Virus record (IMG/VR): IMGVR_UViG_3300017751_005770
Span: 1-29,227 of that record
DNA: 29,227 nt
Source: a virus
Direction: 5' to 3' (one strand)
The position numbers and the translations under genes were made by a program. Of the stretch, positions 17,023 to 23,376 are shown piece after piece. A model generated the notes under the pieces. It made no database searches and was not told the origin of the DNA. It saw only the letters and a list, made by a program, of their open reading frames with translations. Numbering within the stretch: position 1 is the stretch's first letter; each line of letters begins with the position of its first letter.

Positions 17023-17053
17023 TAGGATACCTGAAGAAAAGGTCGTATATTCA
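17023..17053 (+). promoter_or_regulatory. Recurring phage promoter, copy 1
   Basis: The -33 element TAGGATACC lies at 17023-17031 and the -7 element TCG-TATATTCA at 17043-17053, with 14 bases between TAGGATACC and TATATTCA. It sits just after the dehydrogenase stop and about 30 bases before the gene at 17081. The leader contains AAAAAGGTTAT, similar to the other copies, but here the start ATG comes later, at 17081. It separates the sugar cluster from the following genes. Confidence 0.75.
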
Positions 17054-22347: not shown

Positions 22348-22803
22348 ATGAATTTATCACCAGAAGAAAAAGAAAGATTTGATAACTTATCTACTAGCGA
22401 CCAGCTTAAGTTGGAAAAAATATTTGCTATGATGAAAGCTGAGAAAGATGCTAAAAAAGCAACTAATGAAGATTTTGATAGTGTAGTAGATGATATCATG
22501 GATCAAGGTAAATCAGAAGAGGATGCTAAAAAAATTGCAGGTGCAATTAATGCTAAATATGTAGGCAATTATAGAGAAGGTGTTGAAGAAGGTATTAAAG
22601 AAGGTGTAGTTAAAAAAATTAGACAAGCACTTAAAGATGATGCTAAAGGAACTGATGTTGAAATTGATTCTTATATGGATAGTTTAAGAAAATCAGGAGA
22701 TTCATTTGATGATATAGATGATTTTGTAGAAGATTTTAAAAATTATGTAGCAGATAGAGGATTACAAGAACACTTTGGTCGTTTCTTAAAAGATTTTCAA
22801 TAA
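22348..22803 (+). CDS. Unknown acidic helical protein, 151 aa
   Basis: The function is not recognised. The protein is nearly all helical and acidic. It opens with MNLSPEEKERFDNLSTSDQL. The middle part is DDIMDQGKSEEDAKKIAGAINAK, a pattern like short helical segments seen in several phage capsid and protease precursor proteins. It ends in a long Asp-rich stretch (DSFDDIDDFVEDFKNYV). It follows the EF-hand membrane protein by 4 bases and precedes a perfect terminator hairpin, so it is the last gene of that unit. A scaffolding or DNA-mimic-like role could fit the charge, but nothing specific supports it. Confidence 0.72.
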   Translation: MNLSPEEKERFDNLSTSDQLKLEKIFAMMKAEKDAKKATNEDFDSVVDDIMDQGKSEEDAKKIAGAINAKYVGNYREGVEEGIKEGVVKKIRQALKDDAKGTDVEIDSYMDSLRKSGDSFDDIDDFVEDFKNYVADRGLQEHFGRFLKDFQ

Positions 22804-22827
22804 AATAATTTAAAATAAATTAAAGGT

Positions 22828-22859
22828 AATGCGGTATCCATTTGGTTACCGCATTTTTT
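22828..22859 (+). terminator. Strong terminator hairpin containing the next -33 box
   Basis: A 9-bp perfect stem AATGCGGTA (22828-22836) with TACCGCATT (22847-22855), loop TCCATTTGGT, then T-tract to 22859. This is a clear intrinsic terminator for the gene ending at 22803. The -33 element of promoter copy 3 (TTGGTTACC, 22842-22850) lies in its loop and 3' arm. Confidence 0.85.
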
Positions 22860-22872
22860 CTTCGTATATTCA
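22842..22872 (+). promoter_or_regulatory. Recurring phage promoter, copy 3, driving a noncoding RNA
   Basis: TTGGTTACC at 22842-22850 and TTCG-TATATTCA ending at 22872, with standard spacing. Unlike the other copies it has no AAAGGTT leader and no open reading frame downstream; it is followed by a structured region ending in its own terminator. Confidence 0.85.
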
Positions 22873-22875
22873 TGC

Positions 22876-23010
22876 CAAGTTAGTTAAGGTCAAAGCTGGT
22901 GTGAGAAGTCCAGGTAAAAGATCCAAAAAGGTGTAAAACACAATCCACTAATCTTAATTGTATGTGGTTTCAATCTACTGCTTAACAACTTAGCCCCGCG
23001 GGCTTTTTTT
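22876..23010 (+). ncRNA. Unrecognised structured RNA, about 130 nt
   Basis: Promoter copy 3 and a terminator bracket this region, which contains no plausible protein gene (an ATG at 22872 runs only three codons, and a GTG frame at 22901 gives 11 residues). The predicted ends pair: AAGTT-a-GTTAAG (22877-22888, one bulged A) with CTTAACAACTT (22981-22991), an 11-bp closing helix. Inside are smaller hairpins: CTGG/CCAG (22896-22899 with 22910-22913), GTGT-AAA-ACAC (22931-22941), and AATCCAC/GTGGTTT (22942-22948 with 22964-22970, one mismatch). The 3' end is the terminator stem AGCCC-CGC-GGGCT (22992-23004) plus seven T. It is not a tRNA and does not match tmRNA, 6S or RNase P as far as I can tell. 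Function unknown. Confidence 0.75.
22992..23010 (+). terminator. Terminator of the noncoding RNA
   Basis: AGCCC (22992-22996), loop CGC, GGGCT (23000-23004), followed by an unbroken T-run to 23010. It begins directly after the closing helix of the RNA, so it probably forms the RNA's 3' end. Confidence 0.85.
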
Positions 23011-23030
23011 AAAGATTCCCGCGTAAATAT

Positions 23031-23061
23031 TTGGTTACCCGGAGGAGAGTTCGTATATTCA
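23031..23061 (+). promoter_or_regulatory. Recurring phage promoter, copy 4
   Basis: TTGGTTACC at 23031-23039 followed by CGG, and GTTCG-TATATTCA ending at 23061, with standard spacing. The leader carries AATAAAGGTT (23082-23091) abutting the ATG at 23092. It is 20 bases behind the noncoding RNA terminator and starts the long row of tiny genes. Confidence 0.85.
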
Positions 23062-23091
23062 CGGTATAATAATTAATAAACAATAAAGGTT

Positions 23092-23376
23092 ATGAAAACA
23101 TTTAAAGATGTTATTTTTAAAAAACACAGATTGGGTGATGGATGCATCCAAGGATTACTTATGTTAGATAATGGTATTGAAATATCTGTAGTAGCAGGTA
23201 ATGGAATGTACAGTGCAGGTAAAACAGGTGTTAGAGGACCAATTAATAAAGCAGAAGATGTTTCTTCATTTGAAGTTGCTATATTTGACCAAGATGGTGA
23301 ATTTATTGGTGATGATATGGTTTTATCATGGCAATCAAGAGAAGATATTAATAATATAATTGAAAAATTTTCATAA
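23092..23376 (+). CDS. Unknown protein, 94 aa, first gene of small-gene array
   Basis: The function is not recognised. The ATG is directly preceded by AATAAAGGTT and by promoter copy 4, so the start is well supported. The protein looks like a small mixed alpha/beta fold: KTFKDVIFKKHRL, then GLLMLDNGIEISVVAGNGMYSAG, then SSFEVAIFDQDGEFIGDDMV, and a C-terminal helix (REDINNIIEKF). The pattern of a short beta sheet with Gly-rich turns resembles small phage-encoded proteins of unknown role common in T4-like genomes. It has no membrane or metal motif. It overlaps the next small gene by one base (TAATG). Confidence 0.78.
   Translation: MKTFKDVIFKKHRLGDGCIQGLLMLDNGIEISVVAGNGMYSAGKTGVRGPINKAEDVSSFEVAIFDQDGEFIGDDMVLSWQSREDINNIIEKFS

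Follow-up and report, generated by a model that had tools for sequence, protein, structure and literature searches.

The window analyzed here, a 29,227-nt stretch of viral DNA (IMG/VR record IMGVR_UViG_3300017751_005770), carries on its + strand a member of a new family of phage RNAs that falls within the broad kind of free-standing structured phage RNAs and has no match among catalogued families. The existence of the RNA, its boundaries, structure, and conservation, as well as its arrangement as an autonomous transcription unit, are shown by comparative sequence analysis; its transcription and its role are inferred. The 29-kb source record is related to Flavobacterium phage immuto (Immutovirus), with 53% identity between the epimerases and 42.5% between the nucleases. 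Its PHROGs matches include a clamp loader, an exonuclease-type nuclease, glycosyltransferases, an aminotransferase, and a UDP-glucose dehydrogenase, which suggests a T4-like phage. The host group of the RNA-bearing phage is marine Bacteroidota. No tRNA or tmRNA genes were detected in the window by ARAGORN.

The structured body of the RNA, the predicted core of the transcript, spans 115 nt (positions 22877 to 22991; this and all other features described below are on the + strand) and has covariance model matches of 128.3 bits and 120.7 bits. Its two ends pair in helix P1, in which the 5′ strand AAGUU-A-GUUAAG (22877-22888, with A22882 bulged) forms 11 bp with CUUAACAACUU (22981-22991). The interior consists of the P2 hairpin (22896-22913; CUGG/CCAG, with 22896-22899 paired to 22910-22913), whose loop contains the conserved GAG.AGU, and the long-range helix P3 (22919-22976; AGAU/AUCU, with 22919-22922 paired to 22973-22976), which carries the P4 hairpin (22945-22967; CCAC/GUGG). 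The P2 loop might also pair with the strand 3′ of P3 in a two-pair pseudoknot (22902-22925; U22902-A22925 and G22903-C22924), but the evidence is merely suggestive: one of the pairs co-changes, being U-A in 5 sequences and G-C in 12, and this represents a single evolutionary event. The UUAAGGU segment of the P1 5′ strand (22884-22890) is also complementary to AYCUUAA in the P4 loop (22951-22957). This alternative pairing could act as a switch or occur as an intermediate during folding; the divergent copy retains most of it, with one double change. The GUGUAAAACAC hairpin seen in the energy fold was rejected as a conserved element, as it is not kept in relatives. The fold energy itself is not unusual compared to shuffled sequences (z = 0.19) and is therefore uninformative, which left it to the homologs to decide.

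Searches of IMG/VR by neighboring proteins and DNA patterns, followed by the covariance model R1, identified 23 further viral records with the RNA (at least 24 with the window), which represent four lineages; two of the copies are partial. These lineages are a T4-like clade related to Immutovirus (records G008, G011, and G034-G043), large phages in which the RNA lies near GroEL or NadE/APRT genes (G030, G044, G045, G048, G050, and G051), small phages that carry it directly behind the terminase gene (G046, G047, G049, and G052), and a divergent record of 94.8 kb (G012, with an R1 score of 59.8 bits). In the large phages, the RNA is found near a phage GroEL gene, which has named homologs, at loci L151, L153, L156, L161, and L162, and some loci of this group have genes nearby that resemble those for NAD synthetase, adenine phosphoribosyltransferase, or nucleosidase (named by eye). 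Two copies, L147 (4362-4510) and L146 (5683-5787), contain an insertion of about 34 nt within the P4 arm. The P4 loop (22949-22963 in the window), UAAYCUUAAWUGYAU, which is the sole long loop with a conserved sequence, is conserved only in the T4-like and GroEL groups. When the window and ten records were searched over their full length with the model, each had a single strong copy, at varying positions. Among the 22 loci around the copies that were scanned with ARAGORN, a single tRNA gene was found, for tRNA-Arg near the L149 copy.

The structure is supported by covariation in several analyses. RNAalifold, applied to a MAFFT alignment of 18 sequences, predicted 20 pairs, 8 of them with double changes. 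In a second MAFFT alignment, which included the divergent copy and was not fitted to the structure, 95.1% of the cells of the 25-pair structure were paired and 15 of the 25 pairs showed double changes; sliding the partners by 1 to 3 columns lowered these values to 31 to 45% and to 1 to 3 pairs, respectively, and none of the 500 shuffles reached the covariation score of the structure. The structure-fitted alignment gave the same picture. In an unguided scan of all possible stems, P3, P1, P4, and P2 ranked first, P3 with four double-change pairs (reached by 0 of 300 column shuffles) and P1 with three in its upper six pairs (reached by 6 of 300). All four pairs of P3 change on both sides, the helix being GUAC/GUAC, GAGC/GCAC (with one mismatch), or GAGU/ACUC elsewhere; the P4 stem is found as CCGC/GCGG, CCGG/CCGG, or CCUAAC/GUUAGG, and P2 has a U-A to C-G change that keeps the pairing. 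Some of the co-changes arose only once and were then passed on within a lineage. In P1 of the divergent record G012, which reads AUAAU-A-GUUGGG/CCCAAC-AUUAU, the sequence has changed, with A-U replaced by G-C twice, and the 11-bp helix is kept together with the bulged A.

The locus has the sequence properties of a free-standing structured phage RNA, namely, its own promoter, its own terminator, no open reading frame (ORF), and a covarying structure; this conclusion rests on sequence evidence, and transcription has not been observed. The predicted promoter (22841-22872) combines a −33-like box, TTTGGTTACC, starting at 22841, with a −7-like box, TATATTCA, at 22865-22872. Its core, TCGTATATTCA (22862-22872), occurs five times in the window without mismatch, each time on the + strand; with one mismatch allowed, the count is 5, compared to an expectation of 0.95, and none of the shuffles had as many. 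The exact copies are at 17043, 20760, 22862, 23051, and 28586; several of them are preceded by a GGnTACC-type box, and several are followed by a leader of the AAUAAAGGUUAUG type. A promoter scan found no Escherichia coli-type sigma-70 site at this position. The promoter resembles the TTTG/TAnnTTTG type of Bacteroidota. The only intrinsic terminator found in the 22700-23150 region (0.3 expected) is located at 22992-23010 and consists of AGCCCCGCGGGCT, with its stem at 22992-23004, and a T run. Within 22998-23025, CGCGGG and CCCGCG, 3′ of the terminator stem, could pair as a second hairpin around the T run.

The next gene (23092-23376) has a separate phage promoter (23030-23061, with its core at 23051-23061), and the RNA is therefore not the leader of that gene. 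On the other side, the terminator hairpin (22829-22859) of the upstream gene (22348-22803) overlaps, through its 3′ arm, the −33-like box of the RNA promoter. The 22829-22872 segment thus appears bifunctional, with the terminator hairpin of one gene containing a box of the next promoter, and this same layout recurs in relatives as GCGGTAACATTTGGTTACCGC-T9-CGTATATTCACG. In relatives that lack the RNA, the same bifunctional terminator/promoter stands directly before the same downstream gene, which indicates that the promoter-RNA-terminator unit is a cassette that has been gained or lost. Upstream sequences differ by lineage, and a promoter-like box precedes P1 in nearly every homolog (about 25 nt further upstream in the terminase-linked group and less clear at L155). 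Nearly every copy is closely followed by a terminator, whose sequence differs by group; an exception is the most divergent copy, L192, in which P1 is followed by a T run alone, without a separate terminator hairpin. Neighboring genes also vary between lineages, and many copies are followed by a gene with its own promoter right after the terminator.

The preliminary description of this region had proposed a stand-alone RNA with its own promoter and terminator. Its observation is confirmed and its interpretation supported, the unit being kept in unrelated contexts, with the transcript itself still inferred from sequence alone. The promoter, the closing helix with its bulged A, and the terminator had been placed at positions that match the sequence, and the proposed 11-bp pairing of the ends held exactly and is part of the minimum-energy fold of the trimmed RNA. 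The claim of three smaller hairpins held only in part, as the conserved interior comprises the P2 hairpin and a P3 helix that carries the P4 hairpin. Two outcomes that would have refuted the proposal did not materialize: the closing helix does covary, with double changes in 6 of the 11 P1 pairs, and there is no conserved protein frame, since small indels between homologs break any frame. The absence of a credible protein gene was also borne out. The sole in-frame ATG opens a 7-codon ORF (MWFQSTA/MRFQSTT) that is confined to the T4-like clade and absent from the other lineages, and the protein-coding reading was rejected.

The statement that the RNA belongs to no recognized family held as well. 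Scans of the window and of representatives of the four groups against Rfam 15 with cmscan yielded only subthreshold matches, mostly to terminator hairpins; a weak CRISPR-repeat-like match (E = 0.66) was rejected, since the bases concerned are not the same in other lineages. Searches of named phages by blastn with three family members gave no match, nor did model searches of seven phage records. Immutovirus immuto and the Nonlabens phages tested all lack the RNA, and phages of these types can therefore do without it. In 84,980 genomes, a pattern able to recover the three main lineages had 7 matches, of which the model supported none. The model itself, run with strict filters on 395 Bacteroidota genomes, found no copy, and a looser pattern was about as frequent in 395 genomes as its reversed control, with nothing significant among the seven loci tested. 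As evidence of absence from host genomes, these results are strong with respect to close members of the family and weak with respect to distant ones. No description of this phage RNA was found in the literature searched.

In the preferred reading, the RNA is a small RNA that lytic Bacteroidota phages encode as an autonomous unit and that acts in trans. Transcription from the RNA's own phage promoter would start at or near 22877; the RNA would fold closed through P1 with its bulged A, the P2 hairpin, the P3/P4 arm, and, perhaps, a small pseudoknot. Termination at the RNA's own intrinsic terminator would yield about 130 nt of transcript. Within the junction, the unpaired bases that are conserved (GGU.AA, GAG.AGU, GU.AA, CC, G..UAA.A, UU.CA, and AC) would make up a binding core that holds a specific partner, whereby a host factor would be sequestered or redirected; potential partners include a defense effector, an RNase, a ribosomal component, and RNA polymerase. 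Transcription, action in trans, partner binding, and the host nature of the partner are all inferred, and the proposal as a whole could as easily prove wrong as right. The roles suggested in the preliminary description (a regulator, a mimic of a host RNA, or sequestration of a protein) likewise remain unshown.

What favors a binding core is the distribution of conserved bases: over eight representatives, 56% of the unpaired core positions are invariant, compared to 30% of the paired ones. The junction is kept as sequence and the helices as shape, which argues for a bound partner (or an active site) rather than a variable seed. A host partner appears likelier than a phage protein or an mRNA bound by base-pairing, since the core is common to unrelated phages, T4-like and small terminase-linked, and the neighboring genes are not, and the presence of the RNA in unrelated phages and not, as far as searched, in hosts suggests a common host target. 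The host nature of the partner rests solely on this sharing of the core and is inferred, not shown; horizontal exchange of a phage-internal function would also fit, and no systematic search for companion genes common to the RNA-bearing phages underlies the inference. A bolder reading, toward which the balance of evidence does not quite tip, is that the family represents a new class of phage RNA effectors, i.e., a compact, perhaps pseudoknotted, promoter-RNA-terminator cassette that is exchanged between unrelated lytic marine Bacteroidota phages and would block or take over one conserved host machine or defense system by direct binding and not by base-pairing.

Among the alternatives, an antisense regulator, whose P4 loop would pair with translation starts of phage or host mRNAs, survives best but is still unlikely. 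The loop comes close to full complementarity with ACAAUUAAGGUUAUG, a leader found after some of the phage promoters, is kept between subfamilies that differ elsewhere, and gives pairing energies with the leader of the MKTFKD gene of −13.1 kcal/mol in a relative of the window and −9.0 kcal/mol in the window. However, in 11 phages, matches of the loop to start regions are no commoner than those of shuffled loops, and no 15-nt stretch of the RNA consistently prefers gene starts over gene interiors (phage genes only). Further, the GroEL-group phages keep the P4 loop, yet only 1 of 50 genes there has this leader, and the loop sequence is missing from the terminase-linked group and from L192. Mimicry of the Shine-Dalgarno sequence by GGAG in the P2 loop was considered and rejected, as this motif is not kept in the clade of the window (UGAG).

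A cis-acting nascent RNA, either a processive antiterminator (similar to HK022 put or EAR) or a riboswitch or attenuator controlling terminator read-through, appears improbable as well. The location of the RNA at the very start of the transcript, with a terminator at once after it, is consistent with such a function, and conserved unpaired junction bases are typical of cis elements. However, the downstream genes vary by lineage and many carry their own promoters right after the terminator, which makes action in cis unlikely; in addition, the terminator does not overlap P1, so that no switch is visible, and the RNA is present as a single copy per record in varying positions. A packaging RNA or an RNA scaffold that assembles with virions or into oligomers, as in phi29 or GOLLD/ROOL, would fit the paired ends, the branched junction, and the position just after the terminase gene in one lineage. 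This reading is very unlikely, as the other lineages showed no terminase gene next to the RNA, there is no Rfam match, and the P4 loop is absent from two groups, leaving no conserved loop-loop contact visible. An equally remote possibility is a small catalytic RNA or metabolite sensor, with the junction as an active site or ligand pocket; the core is more conserved than the helices and a pseudoknot is possible, but no Rfam ribozyme or riboswitch matches, and a free-standing unit without a regulated gene disfavors a riboswitch. A chance arrangement or a DNA element without an RNA product, for which only the ordinary fold energy (z = 0.19) speaks, is all but excluded by the covariation controls and by the promoter and terminator that flank the RNA in independent contexts.

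Stable RNAs C and D of phage T4 are free-standing transcripts of about 120 to 140 nt with unknown function, encoded within a tRNA cluster. By analogy, without a comparison of sequence or structure, the RNA described here is of similar size and also free-standing, but it does not lie in a tRNA cluster. GOLLD and ROOL are phage-encoded stand-alone structured RNAs of unknown function that were defined by covariation; they are about 600 to over 800 nt long, are often found near tRNA islands, and oligomerize (PMC12286853), whereas this RNA is about 130 nt long and not located by tRNAs. With this size, no Rfam match, and one tRNA in 22 loci, it does not qualify as a member of either family. The packaging RNA of phi29, which binds the connector and the ATPase and is required for packaging, is a short phage transcript with an end-pairing helix and a branched junction. 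The RNA shares both features, but the junction sequences differ, and with no Rfam match and a terminase gene adjoining in only one of the four lineages, membership in the phi29 type is not supported. The HK022 put and EAR RNAs fold right after the promoter and before a terminator; unlike these, the phage RNA is single copy and not an operon leader, and the genes downstream of it are variable. Host 6S RNA, tmRNA, and Y-RNA-like RNAs are also closed by pairing of their two ends, and mimicry of a host RNA is possible. However, the phage RNA has a branched multihelix core and not a bubbled rod or a tRNA-like domain; it does not belong to 6S RNA (no Rfam match and a branched conserved structure) or to tRNA/tmRNA (by ARAGORN and Rfam).

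The new family combines a structure fixed by covariation with a conserved unpaired core and is spread among unrelated phages; these belong to an abundant marine group about whose phages little is known. The RNA is a well-defined target for pull-down and probing experiments, and the covariance model of the family could become an Rfam entry. Several of the best-known families of phage noncoding RNAs are very large or linked to tRNAs; this one is small and well bounded.
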